Below are positions 10,469-34,536 of a stretch of DNA of 34,536 nt, piece by piece. Numbering within the stretch: the first letter of the stretch is position 1; every line of letters begins with the position of its first letter. The notes below the pieces were generated by a model. It had not been told where the DNA came from. It did not search any database and saw nothing but the letters and a program-made list of their open reading frames with translations. The position numbers were made by a program, and so were the translations under genes. The DNA comes from Candidatus Methylumidiphilus alinenensis (GTDB lineage Bacteria > Pseudomonadota > Gammaproteobacteria > Methylococcales > Methylococcaceae), in contig QJPH01000377.1 of NCBI GenBank assembly GCA_003242955.1, positions 1-34,536 of the forward strand. The letters are read 5' to 3'.

Positions 10469-10518
10469 TTACAGCGTTTTCAACATCAAATACAGCGTTT
10501 TCGACATCAAATAGTTAC
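10469..10518. repeat. Tandem pair of CAGCGTTTT repeat ends
   Basis: Two head-to-tail copies of TACAGCGTTTTCRACATCAAA lie directly after gloB (10469-10490 and 10491-10518, the second continuing TAGTTAC). The same sequence forms the ends of the elements at 20588-20740 and 24166-24286. Each copy is preceded by TA, as expected for a TA-targeting (IS630/Tc1-mariner-like) element. The tandem arrangement may reflect one insertion into another. Confidence 0.65.
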
Positions 10519-10530
10519 TAGATAAATATT

Positions 10531-10881
10531 ATGCATTTGCGAAGATTTTCATTAAATCAGACGCAGTGTTTGAATCACGCAATCCGGCAGATTCAAGACT
10601 GGCGTTCATGGTTACTTGCGAACCAGAGCTATGCTGCAGGCCAACGAACAGAGAGCGGACTTGGCTTGGCAAATATCAACGGCAATGTTCTTGGCCTTAT
10701 TCTAATTGGTCGCCGCTCATCTTTGCATGAAGGCACAATACAGCGTCGGCGGCAGATGGTGCATGAAATCATTGGATGGCATCCCGGTAATTCAAATCAC
10801 CGAAGAGGTTGGCTCGTTTCCAAGCTCCGGCTTGGGTATGCAGTCTTTGAAGCTCCTGCTTCCCTAAATACGGCAAGCTAG
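10531..10881 (+). CDS. Hypothetical protein between repeats, doubtful
   Basis: This 116-codon ATG frame starts just after a tandem repeat end and finishes inside another repeat. Roughly the last 20 codons are therefore repeat-derived. The body includes a basic segment GTIQRRRQMVHEIIGWHP. I recognise no family, and I see no ribosome-binding site before the ATG. It may be a remnant of a mobile element gene or not a gene at all. Confidence 0.22.
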   Translation: MHLRRFSLNQTQCLNHAIRQIQDWRSWLLANQSYAAGQRTESGLGLANINGNVLGLILIGRRSSLHEGTIQRRRQMVHEIIGWHPGNSNHRRGWLVSKLRLGYAVFEAPASLNTAS

Positions 10882-11189
10882 AACTCGAAAAGCAGAGGTT
10901 CCCAAGCTTGAGCTCTCATCGTTATACACAAGTCCAGCCAAGCCGACAAAAGCCGTCATTTCGGCAGGGATGCCGAAAACCAGGCCATGGACGGTAATCA
11001 GTAGGTTGTGTAAGTGCTTGATTCAGGTAGCATTCCCATAGCATAGCTTCATGTTCGCGGTTGCAGGGGCATCTGTCGTGGCCCAGAGTTTGCCATCCCT
11101 GGACGCTGGATTTCGGCATCCCTGCCGAAAAGACGGGCCTCCAACACTTGTGTATAACGACGAGAGCTTGAGCTTGGGAACCAGCACAA
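10812..11189. repeat. Dispersed repeat unit A, copy 1, interrupted by a miniature element
   Basis: This is one of three copies of a roughly 105-115-bp sequence bounded by CCAAGCTCCGGCTTGGG and GAGCTTGGGAACCAGCACAA. The others are 14755-14870 and 15046-15148. The left part covers 10812-10914 and the right part 11165-11189. Between them sits the element at 10915-11164. The unit contains a small palindrome at each end. Confidence 0.75.
10915..11164. mobile_element. MITE with 19-bp terminal inverted repeats and a 10-bp target duplication
   Basis: The 250-bp element starts CTCATCGTTATACACAAGT and ends with its inverse carrying one mismatch. It is flanked on both sides by AGCTTGAGCT (10905-10914 and 11165-11174), and removing the element plus one copy restores an intact repeat unit A. 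Inside it, GCCGTCATTTCGGCAGGGAT and its near-inverse form a long hairpin. There is no coding capacity for a transposase, so it is non-autonomous. Confidence 0.8.
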
Positions 11190-14754: not shown

Positions 14755-14870
14755 GCTCGTTCCAAAGCTCCGGCTTGGGAATGCCGTCTTTGAAACTACT
14801 GCTTCAACACGACAAGCTAGAGCTTGAAAAGCAGTGGTTCCCAAGCTGGAGCTTGGGAACCAGCACAAAA
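14755..14870. repeat. Dispersed repeat unit A, copy 2
   Basis: This uninterrupted copy runs from GCTCGTTCCAAAGCTCCGGC to GCTTGGGAACCAGCACAA. It is in the same orientation as copies 1 and 3. It ends directly against the hairpin element at 14871. Confidence 0.75.
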
Positions 14871-15045
14871 ATGCCGTCATTCCGGCAGGGATTGCCGGAA
14901 TCTAGAAGCCATGGAGGGCAAACTCGTTGCTGAGCAAGTGTTTGATTCTGGTAATTTGTAGCCCGCAGTTTCACATCCCTGTGGACTGGATTCCGGCAAT
15001 CCCTGCCGGAATGACGGCGCTTCAACACTTGTGTATAACGATGAG
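14871..15045. mobile_element. MITE related to 10915-11164, left end lost
   Basis: The right end ACTTGTGTATAACGATGAG (15027-15045) matches the right terminal repeat of the element at 10915-11164. The left terminal repeat is missing. An inner inverted repeat of about 30 bp, starting GCCGTCATTCCGGCAGGGAT at 14873 with its inverse ending at 15018, is perfect. Copies 2 and 3 of repeat unit A flank it directly, in the same orientation. Confidence 0.7.
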
Positions 15046-15457: not shown

Positions 15458-15609
15458 GGTGATTTCCAATAATGAAACTACCAAAACTGAAATGAATTAT
15501 CCACAAAATCAAGAACAAACACCTCGCCAAGCTGGTGCTTGGCACTCCCAGAAGGAACGCCAAGCACCAGCTTGGCCTTTGGATGGGATGTTCTTTATTG
15601 GATATCACC
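15458..15609. mobile_element. 152-bp MITE with GGTGATWTCCAATA ends
   Basis: The ends GGTGATTTCCAATA (15458-15471) and TATTGGATATCACC (15596-15609) are inverted repeats with one mismatch. An 18-bp perfect stem, GCCAAGCTGGTGCTTGGC with its inverse (15526-15543 and 15559-15576), forms a central hairpin. An inverted copy lies at 21494-21658. It sits in the 3' flank of ttcA, just beyond its stop codon. Confidence 0.75.
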
Positions 15610-15614
15610 TAACT

Positions 15615-20587: not shown

Positions 20588-20740
20588 TTACAGCGTTTTT
20601 AATGTTGATTGATTACTTTGTTTTTCATTGGCGGCAAAGGGTTGCCGCCCTACAATCCTTGATGTGCAGTAGGTCGGCAACCCTTTGCCGACATGGATGT
20701 AGATTATGTAAGTAACTATTTGATATTAAAAACGCTGTAA
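20588..20740. mobile_element. 153-bp MITE with perfect TTACAGCGTTTTTAAT ends
   Basis: A perfect 16-bp inverted repeat bounds the element (20588-20603 and 20725-20740). Inside are two mutually inverted 20-bp palindromes, GGCGGCAAAGGGTTGCCGCC (20630-20649) and GTCGGCAACCCTTTGCCGAC (20673-20692). There is no transposase. If the outer TA is the target duplication, the element is IS630/Tc1-mariner-like. It fills most of the slt to YgjP intergenic gap. Confidence 0.75.
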
Positions 20741-21487: not shown

Positions 21488-21493
21488 ACGTTA

Positions 21494-21658
21494 GGTGATA
21501 TCCAATAAAGAACATCCCATCCAAAGGCCAAGCTGGTGCTTGGCGCTCCCAGAAGGAACGCCAAGCACCAGCTTGGCAAGGTGATTTGCAAAGGATTTGT
21601 TCGTGATTTTCGTGGGCAATTCGTTTCGGTTTTAGTGGATTCATTTTTGTAAATCACT
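21494..21658. mobile_element. Inverted copy of the GGTGATWTCCAATA MITE
   Basis: It starts GGTGATATCCAATA seven bases after the metallopeptidase stop and corresponds to the reverse complement of 15458-15609, with about 13 extra bases. The central hairpin is a perfect 19-bp stem (21527-21545 and 21559-21577) and could also act as a transcription end for the upstream gene. The far end AAATCACT is degenerate. Confidence 0.72.
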
Positions 21659-21743: not shown

Positions 21744-21769
21744 AATTCGCCTGGTAACGATTCGTGTCC

Positions 21770-22018
21770 ATGAGAACAACTATCCGCAAAATGGGAAACT
21801 CGCAAGGCATCCTTATCCCTAAAGCCTTGCTCGCGCAGACTGGAATCGAACTAGCCGCCGAGATGGAGGTTGAAAACGGAGCCATCATATTGCGCAAACC
21901 GAAGCAAGCGGCTCGGGATGGCTGGGAGGAAGCCAGCCGGGAGATTGCCGCATCGGGCTGCGACGCGCTGGCATGGCCCGAATTTGTCAATGAAGGCGAT
22001 GCCGAATGGGAATGGTGA
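21770..22018 (+). CDS. mazE: MazE-type antitoxin (AbrB/SpoVT fold)
   Basis: This short antitoxin has the AbrB-like DNA-binding N-terminus MRTTIRKMGNSQGILIPK, followed by an acidic C-terminal tail rich in Glu, Asp and Trp that would wrap around the toxin. I prefer the ATG at 21770 (82 residues). A GTG at 21764 gives two more. The stop overlaps the start of the toxin gene. It is expected to neutralise MazF and repress the operon. Confidence 0.9.
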   Translation: MRTTIRKMGNSQGILIPKALLAQTGIELAAEMEVENGAIILRKPKQAARDGWEEASREIAASGCDALAWPEFVNEGDAEWEW

Positions 22019-22332
22019 CACGCGGTGAGATTTGGCTTACCGGCCTAGACCCAACGGTAGGCAGCGAAATTCAAAAAAACCGGCCCTGCGTTATCATTTC
22101 GCCGCCCGAACTGAATAATTATTTGCGCACTGTGATCGTCGCACCGATGACGACAGGGAGTCAGAAGACACCATTTAGAGTTTCGCTGGATTTTCAGGGC
22201 AAATCTGGCCTGATCTTGCTTGATCAAATCAGAACCTTGGACAAAACACGCCTTATCCGAAAGCTGGGCATGCTAGACGGAAAGACAGTGGCTGATATCC
22301 TCTCCGTGATGCAAGAATTTTTTGCCGAATAG
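22012..22332 (+). CDS. mazF: MazF-type endoribonuclease toxin
   Basis: The 106-residue PemK/MazF toxin opens VTRGEIWLTGLDPTVGSE, followed by KNRPCVIISP, VIVAPMTTG and LDQIRTLDKTRL, the regions that build the mRNA interferase site. The family cleaves single-stranded mRNA at short sequences; the recognised sequence cannot be read from this protein. ATG codons at 22006 and 22012 are both possible, and both overlap the mazE stop, so translation is coupled. mutL starts 21 bases later. Confidence 0.93.
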   Translation: MVTRGEIWLTGLDPTVGSEIQKNRPCVIISPPELNNYLRTVIVAPMTTGSQKTPFRVSLDFQGKSGLILLDQIRTLDKTRLIRKLGMLDGKTVADILSVMQEFFAE

Positions 22333-22353: not shown

Positions 22354-24165
22354 ATGACCATTCGCCTTCTCCCCCCCCAATTGATCAACCAGATTGCCGC
22401 CGGCGAGGTGGTCGAGCGCCCTTCGTCGGTGGTCAAGGAATTGGTGGAGAATTCCTTTGATGCCCAAGCCGGGGTAGTGGAAGTGGATATTGAAATGGGC
22501 GGTCTGCGCTTAATCCGCATCCGTGATGATGGCGCAGGCATGGCGCAAGAGGAATTGCCTCTAGCCTTGTCCCGCCATGCCACCAGTAAGATCGCCAGTC
22601 TGGACGATTTGGAGCGGGTTTCCAGCATGGGTTTCCGGGGGGAGGCATTACCCAGCATTAGCTCGGTTTCGAGGCTTAGCCTCACTTCCAGAACCCAAGG
22701 TTCGGATTATGCCTGGCGCATCCTGGCGGACGGCACCGAGAGCGGTTATGAAATCCAACCAGCTTCCCATCCCTTCGGAACCTGTGTCGAAGTTCGTGAC
22801 CTGTTCTACAACACCCCGGCCCGGCGCAAATTCTTACGCTCGGAAAAAACCGAGTTTTCCCATATTGAAACACTGGTCAAGCGCATGGCGTTAAGCCGTT
22901 TTGAAACGGGTTTTATGCTGCGCCACAATCAGAGGGAGGTACTGAGTCTCCGTCCGGCCCCGTCCCAAACCGAGCGGGAGGGGCGGGTTGCCTTGCTATG
23001 CGGCGACACTTTTTTGGAGAACGCCTTGGCGGTGGATTTTGCATCGTCTGGTTTGCGGCTATCCGGGTGGGTGGGGCTACCTACTTTCTCCCGCAGCCAG
23101 GCCGATATGCAATTTTTTTACGTCAATAGACGGCTGGTGCGTGACAAGCTAGTTACCCACGCCGTCCGCCAAGCCTACCAGGATGTGCTGCACCATGGTC
23201 GGCAGCCGGTGTATGTGCTCTACCTTGACCTTGATCCCGCGATGGTCGATGTCAACGCCCACCCGGCCAAGCTGGAAGTTCGTTTCCGCGACAGCCGACT
23301 GGTTCATGATTTTTTGTTCCGGGCCTTGTATCGGGCCATAGCCGATGACCGCCCTGGAGGTTCATCCAATCCTTTGAATGAGCCGGTGCAGAACCCTTTC
23401 AATCCCCGCTTTGACGGTTCAAGCCCGGCTTTAGCCCCGCGTCCGGTAGCTTCCTTCGCGCCGCCTCGAAGACAGGCGTCCCTGCCTTTGCATGTCAAGG
23501 AAACGCTGCTTGCCCTGAACGAACTTTACACACCGGCCACGGGTGGCGTGGTACAGGCGACCCAGCCGCAGGAATCGGACCATCCGCCATTAGGCTATGC
23601 CATCGCCCACTTGCATAATATCTACATTCTTGCGGAAACTCCCACCGGTTTGATCTTGGTGGACGCACATGCGGCGCATGAAAGGGTGACCTATGAGAAA
23701 CTTAAACGGCAACGGCAGTCGGGTGGGGTCGCCAGCCAACCTTTGCTGCTGCCAATCAGTGTCAGGCTGAGCGAGTCCGATGCCGATTTGGCCGGGGAAT
23801 TCGCCGAATCGTTCGCCAGCCTAGGTATGGAATTGAGCCGCTCTGGACCCGGCACCGTGCTAGTGCGTTCCGTGCCTGCCTTGCTAGCTGGCGCGGATGT
23901 GGAGAGTTTGTTGCGCGATGCCTTGGCAGACCTTCACCAGCATGGACGTAGTCTTCGCTTGGAGCAGGCTTTGCTTGCCGTGTTGGCGAGCATGGCTTGC
24001 CACGGATCGGTTCGGGCACATAGACGATTGACTATTCCAGAAATGAACGCTCTGTTGCGGGATATGGAAACGACCGAAAATAGCGGTCAATGCAATCACG
24101 GACGGCCCACATGGATCGAACTCAGCGGCAAGGATTTGGACAGGTTTTTCTTGCGTGGGCAATAA
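22354..24165 (+). CDS. mutL: DNA mismatch repair protein MutL with endonuclease-type motif
   Basis: MutL couples mismatch recognition by MutS to strand cutting. The GHKL ATPase domain covers about residues 1-330: IAAGEVVERPSSVVKELVEN, DDGAGM, GFRGEALPSIS. A Pro-rich linker follows, then a C-terminal dimerisation domain from about 410. That domain carries DAHAAHERVTYE (residues 437-448), matching the endonuclease pattern DQHA-x2-E-x4-E except for Q to A. It also has ACHGSVRAH and CNHGRP (residues 580-585). This suggests a nicking MutL as in Pseudomonas rather than a MutH-dependent one. The gene is bracketed by mazEF and hicBA. Confidence 0.97.
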   Translation: MTIRLLPPQLINQIAAGEVVERPSSVVKELVENSFDAQAGVVEVDIEMGGLRLIRIRDDGAGMAQEELPLALSRHATSKIASLDDLERVSSMGFRGEALPSISSVSRLSLTSRTQGSDYAWRILADGTESGYEIQPASHPFGTCVEVRDLFYNTPARRKFLRSEKTEFSHIETLVKRMALSRFETGFMLRHNQREVLSLRPAPSQTEREGRVALLCGDTFLENALAVDFASSGLRLSGWVGLPTFSRSQADMQFFYVNRRLVRDKLVTHAVRQAYQDVLHHGRQPVYVLYLDLDPAMVDVNAHPAKLEVRFRDSRLVHDFLFRALYRAIADDRPGGSSNPLNEPVQNPFNPRFDGSSPALAPRPVASFAPPRRQASLPLHVKETLLALNELYTPATGGVVQATQPQESDHPPLGYAIAHLHNIYILAETPTGLILVDAHAAHERVTYEKLKRQRQSGGVASQPLLLPISVRLSESDADLAGEFAESFASLGMELSRSGPGTVLVRSVPALLAGADVESLLRDALADLHQHGRSLRLEQALLAVLASMACHGSVRAHRRLTIPEMNALLRDMETTENSGQCNHGRPTWIELSGKDLDRFFLRGQ

Positions 24166-24286
24166 TGCAGCGTTTTCAGCATCAAATGGTAACTTGATAA
24201 GGTGGATGGTGGTGCTAGTTATTTTTTCGATCAGAGATTGTTTAAAAATTCATTTTTAGTTAGATTTTAAACATGAAAACGCTGTA
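24166..24286. mobile_element. MITE of the CAGCGTTTT family after mutL
   Basis: The ends TGCAGCGTTTTCAGCATC (24166-24183) and ATGAAAACGCTGTA (24273-24286) are inverted. The interior is AT-rich and non-coding. It starts directly at the mutL stop and ends 21 bases before hicB. Confidence 0.65.
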
Positions 24287-24307
24287 ATAGGCAACGGAGA
24301 ATATTAC

Positions 24308-24511
24308 ATGACACATAATTTCACTCTCGAATACTGGTTAGACAATGGCTGGTATGTAGGAAAATTAAAAGAAGTTCCCGGTGTTTTTTCCCAAGGAGAA
24401 ACGTTGGTTGAGTTGGAAGAAAATATTGCCGAAGCCTATACACTCATGGTTGAAGACGATGCTAAGCATCCTGAATCGAAATTCAAGGAAATCATGTTGG
24501 AAGTCGCGTGA
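24308..24511 (+). CDS. hicB: HicB-type antitoxin
   Basis: The 67-residue protein has the HicB partial RNase H-like fold: the N-terminal strand pair FTLEYWLDNGWYVGKLKEVPG, then SQGETLVELEENIAEAYTLM. The C-terminal tail is short and has no recognisable DNA-binding domain, so its repression may need the complex. An AACGGAGA ribosome-binding site precedes the ATG. The TGA stop overlaps the GTG of the next gene by four bases. Confidence 0.88.
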   Translation: MTHNFTLEYWLDNGWYVGKLKEVPGVFSQGETLVELEENIAEAYTLMVEDDAKHPESKFKEIMLEVA

Positions 24512-24684
24512 AAACCGGAAATTTCATCCGCGAACTAACCGGTGCAGGATGCTTTCTGAAGAGACATGGAAAAAAACACGATATCTTTGCCAATCCGAAA
24601 ACCGGTAGGCAAGCGCCAGTTCCAAGACATCCAGAAATTCAAGAAAGCTTGTGTGAATTGATACGCAAGCAATTGGGAATTTAA
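24508..24684 (+). CDS. hicA: HicA-type mRNA interferase toxin
   Basis: A 58-codon frame starts with GTG at 24508 in a GTGA overlap with hicB and reads VKTGNFIRELTGAGCFLKRH, continuing GKKHDIFANPKTGRQAPVP to RKQLGI. This is the double-stranded-RNA-binding-like HicA fold, with the catalytic His in GKKHDIF (His24). The group with the NPKTG..PVPRH pattern is a known HicA subtype. The order hicB-hicA is the reverse of the classical E. coli order but is common. It was found by reading through the hicB stop. Confidence 0.87.
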   Translation: MKTGNFIRELTGAGCFLKRHGKKHDIFANPKTGRQAPVPRHPEIQESLCELIRKQLGI

Positions 24685-24691
24685 TTTTTTC

Positions 24692-24708
24692 AAGATGAAA
24701 ATGCTGTA
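24692..24708. repeat. Solo CAGCGTTTT-family end between hicA and the ATPase gene
   Basis: AAGATGAAAATGCTGTA matches the right end of the element at 24166-24286 (ATGAAAACGCTGTA) with one mismatch in the core. The final A is the first base of the ATG of the next gene. Confidence 0.55.
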
Positions 24709-26507
24709 TGAGCAGTGATCCAATTTTACTCGACGCAATTGCCCTAGGTGGCTATAGAAGCTTTGGAGAAATACAACGCTTTGAACAGTTCGCCAAAATC
24801 AATTTGTTGATTGGGCAGAATAATAGTGGAAAATCGAATGTACTTACATTTTTGCACAAGATAGCTCCTTATTTCAGCGACATGTTAAATCGAGGGCTAT
24901 CCCCAAGCAGTGTCAACGAACTTCACCTTGACCGACTTGATGAACATTTACCAATACGACGCAATTTCTGTATTGGATTTACGATAAATATTAATAAAAT
25001 AAAAGATACTTTACATGGATTTGACAAAATATGCCCTAACGGTAAATATGCTGTCGGTAGTTTTGAGTATAATAAGCTTTTTGGTATTTTAATAGGAAAA
25101 GCAAAATTAGATCATAGCCATATTGCATGGATTGACTATGATATAAAAAATTGGATTAACTATAATACACCAAAAAAAATCAAATATGAGGACTGGTACA
25201 CTGCTTTTAATGGTCTGCAAAACAATGATATAGGGGATATTCATCACTATATCAAGGCGGAGACGGTAGACACAGCCAATCGTGAATTTGCTATCAGAGC
25301 CATCGTCGAATTCTTACAACCTTCTGCCAAGGAATTTACCACCAAGTTGATCCCAGCTATCCGCCAAGTTGGCAAACAAGGAAGTACCTCGGATGATTTT
25401 GATGGAGAGGGTATTATCGAGCGTCTCGCCAAACTGCAAAATCCTGATGTCCACAGACAACAGGATAAGCAGAAATTTGAAGCCATCAATCGCTTCTTGC
25501 AAACTGTCACGGATAATACTACGGCACTGATCGAAATACCCCACGAAAGGGATAGCATCCTAGTCCACATGGATGGAAAAACCTTGCCTTTGCAATCACT
25601 AGGGACGGGCATCCATGAGGTGATCATTCTTGCAGCAGCCGCTACTATACTTGAGAATCACATCATCTGCATGGAGGAACCTGAAATCCATTTACATCCT
25701 ATCTTGCAGAAAAAGCTGGTCCGTTATCTGACCAACAACACCAGCAACCAGTATTTCATCAGCACCCATTCCGCTGCCTTGATGGATACCCCGGATGCGG
25801 AAATCTATCATATACGTTTACAAAATGGACAATCCATCGTTGAACGAGTGACATCGGACCGGCACCGGTCAGCCATCTGCGAAGATTTAGGCTATCATCC
25901 CTCTGATCTATTACAAGCCAATTGTGTCATTTGGGTGGAAGGCCCGTCAGACCGTATTTATTTGAATTACTGGCTCAAATCTCTAGTACCACACTACATC
26001 GAAGGCATTCATTACTCGATTATGTTCTATGGTGGCAGGCTGGCCTCCCACCTTTCTGGCTTGGATATAGACGAGGAGATGGTCAAGAATTTTATTTCCC
26101 TACGCAGGCTCAACCGGCGAGGCGTTATCCTGATAGATAGTGACCGGACCAAGAAATCTGATTCTATTAACGAGACAAAGCGTAGACTAGATGAAGAGTC
26201 AGGCTATGCTTGGATCACCGAGGGCCGGGAGATTGAAAATTACTTGCCGGTTGAGCAAATCAAAAGTGCCATCACTGCCATTATTCCAAGCGCGACACCA
26301 CTATCTAAGTTTGGCAAATATGAGAATGTGCTATCAATAAGAAGGCAGAATGGCAAAAAAGCTGATGCCCCCAAAACTGAAGTTGCCAGACATATTGTCA
26401 GTGCTTACCAAAATCCAGATTTATCCCAACTAGACCTTCGTGAGCAATTAGACAAATTAATCCAATTTATCTTGGAGTCAAACCCAGGTCTAAAGATCAC
26501 AATCTGA
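24708..26507 (+). CDS. OLD-like ATPase with Toprim nuclease domain
   Basis: This 599-residue protein joins an SMC/ABC-type ATPase to a Toprim domain, the layout of overcoming-lysogenization-defect nucleases. Walker A is GQNNSGKS (residues 36-43), a signature-like LGTGIHEV lies near 298, Walker B is ICMEEPE (Glu323, Glu324) and the switch His is in ISTHSA (His354). The Toprim part has WVEGPSDR (Glu411), LIDSDR (Asp477, Asp479) and EGREIENYL (505-513). Standalone OLD proteins are class 1. No GajB-type helicase follows, so it is not a Gabija pair. The gene is visibly more AT-rich than mutL and miaA, suggesting acquisition. Defence against phage is inferred. Confidence 0.9.
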
Positions 26508-26524
26508 TGTTGAAAAACACTGTA
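26506..26524. repeat. Solo CAGCGTTTT-family end before miaA
   Basis: GATGTTGAAAAACACTGTA overlaps the ATPase stop and ends two bases before the GTG start of miaA. Its core differs from the consensus by one or two bases. With 24166-24286 it brackets the HicBA/ATPase block. Confidence 0.55.
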
Positions 26525-26526
26525 GC

Positions 26527-27468
26527 GTGAAAAAATACCCCCCTGCCATTGCAATAATGGGTCCGACCGCATCGGGTAAGACCCGGCTTGCCATCCAGCT
26601 TGCGCAAGCACTGAATGGCGAAATCATTAGCGTGGATTCCGCCTTGGTCTACCGTGGCATGGATATCGGCACAGCCAAGCCCAGCCTTGAAGAAAGGGCT
26701 GGGGTCCCGCACCATTTGGTTGATGTTCTCGATCCTGCGGAGTCCTTCTCGACCGGGCAGTTTAGGCAGCAGGCGTTGCGCCTGATGGCAGAAATTACCG
26801 GGCGGGGCAGGATGCCCTTGCTGGTGGGCGGCACCATGCTGTATTTCAATGCTTTGTTCAATGGGTTGGCAGAGTTGCCCGAGGCCGACGAAGCCATGCG
26901 TCGGCAAATTGATGCCGAAGCTATAAGTTTGGGGTGGGCGGCATTGCATGAAGAATTGACACGGGTCGATCCTCAAGCGGGACTGCGCATCCACCCCAAT
27001 GACCCTCAGCGCATACAGCGTGCCTTGGAGGTTTACCGCCTGACCGGGGTCACCCTAAGTGAATGGTGTTCCCGTGGACGGTCTGAGCCGCCGCCTTTTA
27101 ATATCATCCGGTTCATTGTCGCCCCCGCCAATCGCCCGGTTTTGCATGAAACGATACGCAAACGCTTCCTGTCCATGCTCGACCAGGGACTTGTGGAAGA
27201 AGTTTTGACCCTTTACAGGCGCGGCGATTTGCATCAAAACCTGCCATCCATCCGTGCGGTGGGCTATCGCCAGGTTTGGGCCTATCTTTCAGGGCAATTG
27301 GATTATCCGCAGATGGTCGAGCGTGGCATCATTGCCACACGACAGTTTGCCAAGCGACAGTTCACCTGGTTGCGGCGCGAAGAATCCGCCACCCGCTTCC
27401 TTAGCGAAGACCCGCAGTTGCTGGAAAATGTGCATAGAAAAATCCTTGGCTTAATTGCAAGGATATGA
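26527..27468 (+). CDS. miaA: tRNA dimethylallyltransferase MiaA
   Basis: MiaA transfers a dimethylallyl group to A37 of tRNAs that read codons starting with U. The 313-residue protein has the P-loop GPTASGKT (residues 11-18), [17 protein letters not shown] with the catalytic Asp region, [11 protein letters not shown], and [16 protein letters not shown]. The start is a GTG at 26527 right after a repeat end, with no clear ribosome-binding site. The insertion may therefore have changed its original leader. The usual mutL-miaA adjacency is broken here by the inserted block; no hfq follows. Confidence 0.96.
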
Positions 27469-32949: not shown

Positions 32950-34536
32950 ATGCCGAACTCAACCATGTCCAATCGCCCAGAAATTTCCTCGTTACAGCGC
33001 TTCACGATTCGCTTTTGCCTGCTGTTATTATTGTTAATTGCAGAACTGCTTGGCCTCTCGGTCAACTTCGACAATGAGGTATTTTCCTCCGATCAATCTT
33101 GGTGGACCCGGCTGGCTTATAGATTGGCGGTATTCCTGCGCATTGGACTCGCCTTCGCCGCTGTCTTTCTGTTGATGCTGTCGCCACGCCTAGTTGGCAT
33201 ACTTAAGGAAGCGCGGTATCGCGCATCAGAACACCCTTGGCGGCGCTGGCTTTTATCCCACCTTTGCGTGTTCGGTGTGTTTTATCTGGCAACGGCAACG
33301 GTATTCGCGACTGCAACCGACAGTGGGCATCTATCGGGGGGGCTCATGGGCTTGTGGGTCTGTCTTGGCATTGCCAATCTGCTTTCCTGGCTGTTGGTCA
33401 TTGAGCCTTTCGGGTTTTGGCTCACCTTGGTAAAGCGCGAGCGCTGGCCTTTGGCATTCGCCGCGCTGGCCGGCATCTTAGCCTGGCTGGTCGGGCTACT
33501 CGCGGGGGAACTTTGGAAACCGCTGGCAGAGGGTACTTTCTGGCTTTCTCATTGGTTTTTGGCCTTAGTGTATCCTGAAGTCTCATTCAACCCTACGCGT
33601 TTTATTTTGGGTACATCCAAGTTTTCTGTGGAAATCGCCCCGCAGTGTTCCGGCTACGAGGGCATCGGCTTGGTAATCGTGTTTCTAACGGTTTACCTGT
33701 GGATGTTTCGCGCTGAAATCCGTTTTCCCCACGCCTTTTGGTTATTTCCCATAGGCATCTTGGCGATCTGGTTGGCAAACGCCTTGCGCATCGCAGCTTT
33801 GATTGCCCTTGGCGATTCTTTTTCGCCAGAAATTGCCGTCGGGGGCTTTCACTCTCAAGCAGGCTGGATCAGTTTCATCGCAATCTCTTTGGGCCTGATT
33901 TGGTTGAGCCGTCGGCTGCGGCTGTTTTCGAAGCGGACCCTGATATCCATCGAACAGCGGGATGGCGGCAAGACAGTTGATTTAAGCCGTCATTCCGGCA
34001 TGGATCGCCGGAATCCAGATTGCAGGGATGCCACCAATTCAAGCCATCCATGGAGCCTAGGATCCGGCGGTCCATGCCGGAACGACGGGGAAACTCTTAA
34101 TTCAACGGTATTGACTGCTGAGGCACTACTGGTACCCGGTCTGGTGTTGATGGCTACCATCATGCTGACTTCGGCCTTATCGAGTGGTTTTGACTGGTTG
34201 TATCCTTTGCGCGTATTGACCATGGGCGTTGCCTTGTGGTCTTACCGAAGCGTCTATCGACACTGGGATTGGAGCGTGTCTTTGCCTTCGCTGTTCGTCG
34301 GCATCGCCGTATTTGTGCTGTGGATGCAACTGGAACCTCGTGCGGAACCTGGCCCGACGGCGATGGAAACGGCACTCGCCACCTTGTCGGGTGCCGAAAA
34401 GTCGATTTGGCTGGCGTTTCGCGTGATCGGTTCGGTTTTCCTGGTTCCCGTGGTCGAAGAAATGGCCTTTCGGGGTTATATGATCCGCCGTTTGGCGGGG
34501 CAGGAATTTGACGGTTCAACGCCGCCCCGTTTCACC
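32950..34536 (+). CDS. xrtE: Exosortase E fused to a CAAX-type protease, partial
   Basis: The frame opens with ATG at 32950 and stays open for 529 codons to the window edge. Residues 1-325 form a multi-span exosortase domain with the catalytic triad: Cys233 in QCSGYEGIG, Arg280 in NALRIAAL and His301 in GFHSQAGW. After a hydrophilic linker (about 330-388), more membrane spans lead to the CAAX/CPBP protease motif EEMAFRGY (Glu503, Glu504, Arg508). This fusion is the exosortase E/protease type linked with VPEID-CTERM sorting signals. Exosortases cleave and anchor exported proteins carrying such tails. The C-terminal end and any target gene lie beyond the window. Confidence 0.92.
   Translation, partial: MPNSTMSNRPEISSLQRFTIRFCLLLLLLIAELLGLSVNFDNEVFSSDQSWWTRLAYRLAVFLRIGLAFAAVFLLMLSPRLVGILKEARYRASEHPWRRWLLSHLCVFGVFYLATATVFATATDSGHLSGGLMGLWVCLGIANLLSWLLVIEPFGFWLTLVKRERWPLAFAALAGILAWLVGLLAGELWKPLAEGTFWLSHWFLALVYPEVSFNPTRFILGTSKFSVEIAPQCSGYEGIGLVIVFLTVYLWMFRAEIRFPHAFWLFPIGILAIWLANALRIAALIALGDSFSPEIAVGGFHSQAGWISFIAISLGLIWLSRRLRLFSKRTLISIEQRDGGKTVDLSRHSGMDRRNPDCRDATNSSHPWSLGSGGPCRNDGETLNSTVLTAEALLVPGLVLMATIMLTSALSSGFDWLYPLRVLTMGVALWSYRSVYRHWDWSVSLPSLFVGIAVFVLWMQLEPRAEPGPTAMETALATLSGAEKSIWLAFRVIGSVFLVPVVEEMAFRGYMIRRLAGQEFDGSTPPRFT
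33987..34088. repeat. REP-like element inserted in frame within the exosortase gene
   Basis: CCGTCATTCCGGCA (33987-34000) and TGCCGGAACGACGG (34075-34088) are inverted with one mismatch. They match the repeat family seen at 10968, 14873 and 15427. The 102 bases equal 34 codons, contain no stop in this frame, and encode Arg/Asn/Ser-rich linker residues of about 347-380. Confidence 0.7.

Follow-up and report, generated by a model that had tools for sequence, protein, structure and literature searches.

Insertion sequences of the IS630 family insert at TA dinucleotides. Miniature inverted-repeat transposable elements (MITEs) that end in TATA have been linked to this family in one account (PMC4853749), and MITEs have also been placed beside mobile genes: in the composites called TIME-COMPs, two Tn3-derived MITEs mobilise the DNA between them (PMC13367494), and the MITE-associated genes that another report describes or cites include the qnrS2 mobile insertion cassette, a class 1 integron and blaPER-1 (PMC5444012). 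The published MITE-flanked composites covered in PMC13367494 carry resistance genes, mostly on plasmids. Here we describe a stretch of 34,536 nucleotides, hereafter the window (contig QJPH01000377.1 of Candidatus Methylumidiphilus alinenensis, a probable methane-oxidising bacterium), in which a hicBA toxin–antitoxin pair and a gene for an OLD-like ATPase/Toprim protein lie between mutL and miaA, with MITE sequences at three consecutive junctions. In our judgement it is somewhat probable that hicBA travelled as a MITE-flanked unit and that the repeats at the OLD-like gene are incidental.

The MITEs of the window resemble those of IS630/Tc1-mariner elements in being short, in having inverted ends flanked by TA, and in that the genome has transposase genes with a matching terminus on one side; unlike them, they form three subfamilies, and their ends are very abundant in two of the seven genomes of the genus, fewer in two others and near control level in the remaining three. 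With TIME-COMPs the hicBA unit shares the arrangement of two MITE copies around a cargo (direct or inverted in TIME-COMPs), whereas its ends are of the IS630 rather than the Tn3 type, its cargo is a toxin–antitoxin pair, one of the MITEs in the window would be a remnant, and its movement is deduced from a comparison of two genomes. Like the MITE-flanked genes treated in PMC5444012, hicBA is accessory and found together with MITE copies; unlike the cases given there, the cargo is a toxin–antitoxin pair in an uncultured methanotroph relative, at a location assumed to be chromosomal from the presence of mutL and miaA. The OLD-like gene has ATP-binding cassette (ABC) ATPase motifs and candidate Toprim motifs like those of the class 1 OLD nucleases described in PMC7049728 and, like theirs, is a single gene without a helicase, although sequence similarity is weak. 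The hicBA case adds to the MITE-flanked composites and genes already known from PMC13367494 and PMC5444012; a literature search, which was not exhaustive, turned up neither MITE composites in methanotrophs nor the possible single-gene cassettes in Methylomonas that we describe below. A toxin–antitoxin pair apparently carried in this way between housekeeping genes of an uncultured methanotroph relative would suggest that bursts of MITEs can move small selfish or protective modules.

Results

hicBA and its flanking MITEs

The window is contig C40 of its own genome, G000 (6.57 Mb, 597 contigs). The gap and its flanks are listed below; F1 is a MITE subfamily, A and B are its two ends, and GC is the guanine-plus-cytosine fraction.

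22354-24165, + strand: mutL, left flank; GC 0.571
24166-24288, + strand: complete F1 MITE of ~123 bp, A end left, B end right; GC 0.317, left TA reads TG
24308-24511, + strand: hicB-like antitoxin gene, 67 amino acids; GC 0.402, Pfam matches below curated cut-offs
24508-24684, + strand: hicA toxin gene, 58 amino acids, GTG start; GC 0.429, PF07927
24685-24708, - strand: solo B-type MITE end, weight-matrix match of 20.5 bits, inward side facing left
24708-26507, + strand: OLD-like ATPase/Toprim gene, 599 amino acids; GC 0.418
26502-26524, - strand: solo A-type MITE end, oriented as the solo B-type end, weight-matrix match of 22.8 bits
26527-27468, + strand: miaA, right flank, GTG start; GC 0.558

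HicA matches PF07927 with 34 bits (cut-off 27), and the HicB-like protein has Pfam matches below cut-off (22.6 of 27.3 bits and 20.1 of 27); a HicA domain adjoining a HicB-like antitoxin is the arrangement of HicBA type II toxin–antitoxin systems. By analogy with its family, HicA would be an mRNA-cleaving toxin held by HicB. When hicBA was searched as DNA in 41 genomes, a congener, G004, gave a match of 95% over 404 of 412 bases. In G004 the pair occupies a locus other than mutL–miaA, adjoins YeeE-like genes (a reading by eye) and has a complete F1 MITE on either side, the two being in direct orientation. In G000 and G004 alike, the left MITE stops at identical bases before hicB. On the right side, homology between the two stops within a few bases past the hicA stop codon, where G004 has a complete MITE and the window a solo end. 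Because the complete F1 MITE of G004 stands at the equivalent place, the solo B-type end at 24685-24708 may be read as a remnant of ~20 bp of a right-hand F1 MITE. In G004, hicBA is thus a cargo with a MITE copy on each side, and the window has one complete MITE and at most a remnant; hicBA occurs at two different loci, but with different individual MITEs on its left. Further matches covered the hicB part in G002 (85%) and G006 (84%), where hicA is not intact (13 residues matched and none, respectively); G031 gave a match of 69%, and weaker second matches were found in G002, G004 and G006.

The ends and their probable IS630-type partner

The sequence TACAGCGTTTT occurs 439 times in G000, against 1 for the reversed control, so the concern that the repeat ends might be chance matches at normal genome frequency did not hold. 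A weight matrix of 22 positions was built from 68 exact ends, neither solo end of the window among them; in an 817,308-bp sample of G000 it gave 103 matches above 17 bits, and 0 in the reversed control (both strands). The solo ends before the OLD-like gene (20.5 bits) and before miaA (22.8 bits, a score that allows one inserted base at a 2-bit penalty, as was also allowed in the control) lie above all control positions. Chance matches are ruled out as the origin of these two ends, since the reversed control never exceeds 17 bits.

Three MITE subfamilies with common ends are present in the G000 sample, F1 (~123 bp), F2 (~151 bp) and F3 (~122 bp), with 36 full copies (21 F1, 9 F2 and 6 F3); their terminal repeats are short, inverted and present in many copies, as in IS630-type MITEs. 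Ends with at most one mismatch number 125 in this sample, 61 of them outside full copies, against 24 in total in the reversed control; solo ends are therefore common in G000, some of them by chance. Upstream of CAGCGTTTT[C/T], TA precedes 67 sites in the G000 sample (next dinucleotide 5; eight commonest 85 in total) and 99 sites in a 515,468-bp sample of G004 (next dinucleotide 5), where the background frequencies of TA are 0.039 and 0.04. Besides G000, TACAGCGTTTT is far above control in G004 (885), G006 (126 versus 4) and G002 (102 versus 7), all four belonging to one genus. The congeners G001, G003 and G005 have 8, 6 and 3 occurrences, G037 shows a lesser excess (44 versus 8), and the remaining genomes of the 41 searched have 0 to 10.

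DDE_3 (PF13358, IS630-type) has 10 matches in G000, several of them fragments at contig ends, and 7 of the 10 adjoin a MITE end (21.1-25.4 bits) on one side. In the longest copy, 16 bp separate the stop of the 317-codon transposase gene from the outer base of the adjoining end; no matching left end was found for this copy, and the complete element was therefore not seen. These data support the identification of the elements as TA-flanked MITEs with a probable IS630-type partner. Elsewhere in the window, a complete F2 MITE lies at 20589-20739, and a doubled F1 end, its parts 21 bp apart, accompanies a partial F1 copy at 10470-10575.

A multicopy MITE–cargo–MITE unit

A unit of ~455 bp, consisting of an F3 MITE, ~211 bp of cargo and an F1 MITE, occurs at different sites with exact outer boundaries. 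The G000 sample holds four copies:

C12:23801-24254
C14:33189-33642
C15:27785-28350, with a further insertion
C21:13330-13781

Five more copies were found in the G004 sample. The copies on C12 and C14 sit within other F1 MITEs; insertion of the unit splits these MITEs, and "solo" ends arise in this way. In all other respects the copies of the unit have unrelated flanks. No gene was identified in the ~211-bp cargo. MITE pairs can apparently move DNA in these two genomes. Among the 1.33 Mb sampled from both, no repeated unit longer than ~555 bp had ends at both borders, under a strict filter that also missed the hicBA pair.

The mutL–miaA site

The preliminary description of this locus, made from the window by itself, held that hicBA and a 599-residue OLD-like gene separate two usual neighbours, that this cargo is more AT-rich than its flanks, and that a complete element left of hicB and solo ends after hicA and after the OLD-like gene accompany it. 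The gene coordinates agree with the first point, and all three repeats were located. Measured gene by gene, GC is 0.40-0.43 in the inserted genes, 0.571 in mutL and 0.558 in miaA, the whole window having 0.519. The view that the same sequence stands at each junction is borne out for a core of ~11 bp in the same orientation and fails beyond it: the element is asymmetric, one solo end being its B end and the other its A end, and a single additional T is present in the OLD-side end. All five genes from mutL to miaA are co-directional (+ strand) and tightly packed. The ATG of the OLD-like gene takes its A from the terminal TA of the preceding solo B-type end, and its stop codon lies inside the solo A-type end, which abuts miaA. 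Promoter-like sites number 9 versus 5.8 (s.d. 2.3) in shuffles, and terminator-like sites 2 versus 2.3.

The two housekeeping genes are indeed usually adjacent. Among 80 named mutL loci, miaA is next to mutL in 60, with a median gap of 10 bp; it was not found in 17 despite more than 1.5 kb of following sequence, and in 3 the contig is too short. The hicA, hicB and OLD-like genes have no match at E 1e-4 in any of these 80 loci. Among named mutL relatives, the five closest (81-88% identity) come from metagenome-assembled genomes labelled uncultured Methylococcaceae. In our own genome set, miaA was found in 40 of the 41 genomes searched and 30 loci were examined, that of the window included. Comparison of these junctions showed that none of six congeners has the window's cargo between mutL and miaA. 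In five of them mutL is directly upstream of miaA, without hicBA or the OLD-like gene. The sixth is G004, where mutL stands on one contig (L188) and miaA on another (L032); the two share an identical overlap of 141 bp and would belong to the same assembly, and the gap holds an F3 MITE just after the mutL stop codon and part of a composite, without hicBA. G006 has, at this site, repeats around a gene that by eye resembles a REP-associated transposase.

Two side observations concern these genes. Directly upstream of mutL (21764-22332) lie a MazE-like antitoxin gene, just under the Pfam cut-off, and a PemK/MazF toxin gene, so that with hicBA downstream there are toxin–antitoxin pairs on both sides of mutL. 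A second, partial miaA, 95% identical, stands at a contig end of G000 (C238:1-660); sequence of a close relative may be mixed into this assembly, whose contamination is given as 4.4.

The OLD-like gene

The OLD-like protein matches AAA_15 with 68.2 bits (cut-off 32.1) and AAA_21 also above cut-off, and OLD-like_TOPRIM of Pfam below it (16.8 of 23.2 bits). Walker A lies at residues 36-43, a Walker B region at 323-331 and an H-loop-like motif at 352-356; ExxxD (411-415) and DxD (477-479) were compared with the residues given in PMC7049728. At E 0.01, 135 PADLOC models match, the top one being GajA (73.8 bits), and nine PDB sequences do so at E 0.001, GajA accounting for the top five (E about 1e-4, residues 319-432). 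Gabija was rejected because miaA, instead of a GajB helicase gene, follows the OLD-like gene. A single gene with an N-terminal ABC ATPase and no UvrD-like helicase directly downstream is part of what characterises class 1 OLD systems, along with a Toprim domain bearing ExxxD and DxD; by family analogy, the protein would be an ATP-dependent nuclease active in phage defence. The gene has matches in 54 of 151 genomes, with strong ones in only five others (G133, G093, G040, G109 and G098), none of them a congener. The relatives in G093 and G098 (where the match is in two pieces) are interrupted. No hicBA was found within about 1.5 kb of the five, and a scan of the genome contigs with the OLD-like protein found no relative.

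Discussion

We propose that the gap consists of horizontally acquired AT-rich DNA in two units. In the first, hicBA would have entered between mutL and miaA as a composite-transposon-like unit between two directly repeated IS630-type MITEs, of which the left one stays complete and the right one would have lost its interior by deletion, leaving the ~20-bp solo end, as the comparison with G004 suggests. The second would be the stand-alone, class 1-like OLD ATPase/Toprim nuclease gene; the end on its right is more probably an ordinary TA-targeted insertion at the 3' end than a vehicle, and its repeats are probably incidental. Because the genes are co-directional and tightly packed, hicB, hicA and the OLD-like gene may form one operon that reads on into miaA.

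Several observations weigh against this proposal. At the window's complete F1 copy there is no clean target duplication, its left TA reading TG. The left F1 copies of the window (24166) and of G004 (L135:1906-2027) are 67% identical whereas hicBA is 95% identical; unless conversion or replacement has intervened, the two therefore do not go back to a single insertion. G000 has a YeeE-like gene without hicBA, but its left neighbour differs from that at the G004 locus, so this is not a clean empty site. The spacing of neighbouring ends, given below, is also what random insertion would produce. Other observations speak against assembly of the whole gap by a MITE. The preliminary description had named relatives that carry the same genes without repeat ends as evidence against itself, and such relatives exist in part: within about 1.5 kb, the hicBA relatives of G002, G006 and G031 lack such MITE ends, and none of the five strong relatives of the OLD-like gene (5 of 5) has a MITE end above 12 bits. 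In G000, two F2-type ends enclose BrnT/BrnA-like and TacA-like genes, named by eye from translations (C9:121-1721); G004 has these genes (96%) without the right end, which probably came later, and for want of this end in G004 the locus was rejected as a second cassette.

Bracketing as such is not above chance. The G000 sample has 60 end clusters (0.073 per kb) and that of G004 has 91; at one cluster per ~14 kb, the mere position of a gene between repeats says little for a cassette. Neighbour intervals of at most 3.5 kb number 16 versus 13.6 expected from random spacing in G000 and 44 versus 41.9 in G004. Mean GC of the intervals is 0.486 versus 0.514 at random in G000, a set that contains the window's own intervals (13 of 2000 random sets were as low), and 0.500 versus 0.515 in G004, where part of the sample was picked for many ends (282 of 2000). 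Those below 0.45 GC number 3 versus 1.22 in G000 and 10 versus 4.8 in G004, with 231 and 35 of 2000 random sets, respectively, holding as many. Many bracketed genes have ordinary GC.

In one alternative, every repeat would be incidental: ordinary transfer would have brought hicBA and the OLD-like gene, and TA-targeting MITEs would have inserted later at the AT-rich junctions, as they have next to many other genes of G000. The random-like intervals, the ordinary GC of many bracketed genes, the BrnTA/TacA-like genes that lack a right end in G004, the dissimilar MITEs on the left of hicBA in G000 and G004 and the presence of another MITE, of subfamily F3, just after mutL in G004 all fit it. Independent insertion would, however, hardly place two MITEs by hicBA at two loci with identical junction and orientation on the left, and we regard this account as a real possibility, if a doubtful one. 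A further alternative replaces transposition by homologous recombination: MITE copies would have acted as portable homology for the relocation of hicBA, the left MITE being swapped as well. That would explain why different F1 individuals stand at the same junction, and ends are abundant in both genomes; but the MITEs share just short conserved ends, which offer little homology, and no recombination junction was seen. We consider such relocation unlikely. These explanations are not mutually exclusive, and recombination overlaps with the travel of hicBA as a MITE-flanked unit. A dedicated system of cassettes, each a singly captured defence gene ending in the same transposon end, is the strong form of the preliminary reading and is highly improbable: it draws on the three consecutive junctions with ends and on intervals that are somewhat AT-rich in G000 and less clearly so in G004, but bracketed intervals are not in excess, the strict filter returned no repeated unit above ~555 bp, and relatives of the OLD-like gene have no such ends. 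The related idea that each cargo unit has its own convergent pair of ends was rejected, because in the window no inward end of its own adjoins the OLD-like gene on the left.

The defence island assembled by a miniature element that the preliminary description had suggested is thus partly supported. The TA-flanked MITEs, the absence of the cargo from congeners, the position of hicBA between MITEs in G004 and the multicopy unit speak in favour; the random-like spacing, the OLD and hicBA relatives without ends and the right end missing from the C9 genes in G004 do not. "Defence island" is in any case a generous term for one toxin–antitoxin pair and one ATPase/Toprim gene.

Possible single-gene cassettes in another genus

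The nearest relatives of the OLD-like gene, in G133 and G093, whose genus is probably Methylomonas, lie between inverted repeats of roughly 280 bp, a family with 87 matching pieces in G133 and 77 in G093. From these two genomes, 20 convergent repeat pairs (L278-L297) were picked by eye, both OLD loci included. An open reading frame (ORF) of at least 100 codons is enclosed by 16 of the 20, and in 18 of the 20 the enclosed DNA has a lower GC than the flanks (by only 0.002 in one case). In a Pfam scan of ten enclosed ORFs, three had a match above cut-off, one each to Abi_C, DUF5677 and HNH, one ORF had sub-cut-off matches only and six had no match.

One repeat-pair site was searched in 37 genomes, and 13 stretches among the matches listed (L304-L316) were compared together with L286. 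Eight genomes, that of L286 included, share one right flank and have inverted repeats of ~260 bp around seven different main ORFs, the one in L308 being common to L310 at 96%. The left flank is common to L286 and L313 only; L313 keeps both flanks and is nearly empty, with repeat remnants of 45 and 47 bp. L307 has two left repeats. Among the five remaining stretches, only short remnants are left in L311, a single side bears a repeat in L312 and L316, and L314 and L315 have the flank but no repeat. Loci of this type may be exchangeable one-gene cassettes. A broader reading, that Methylococcales carry accessory or defence genes as one-gene, AT-rich cassettes bounded by whichever interspersed repeat abounds (IS630-type MITEs in the genus of the window, inverted repeats of ~260-300 bp in that of G133 and G093), seems to us quite improbable, and its standing is lowered because the left flank is not shared across the site. 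Were it true, the window would show an array of two cassettes in decay, formed by the same kind of process. The possible single-gene cassettes of the G133/G093 genus may be a more valuable lead than the window itself.

The window contains two other kinds of repeat. Inverted repeats of 97 nucleotides, 90% complementary and with internal palindromes, lie 5.9 kb apart at 15517-15613 and 21490-21586, and REP-like repeats around GCCGTCATTCCGGC or close variants occur at 10941-11136, 14862-15018 and 33975-34088.

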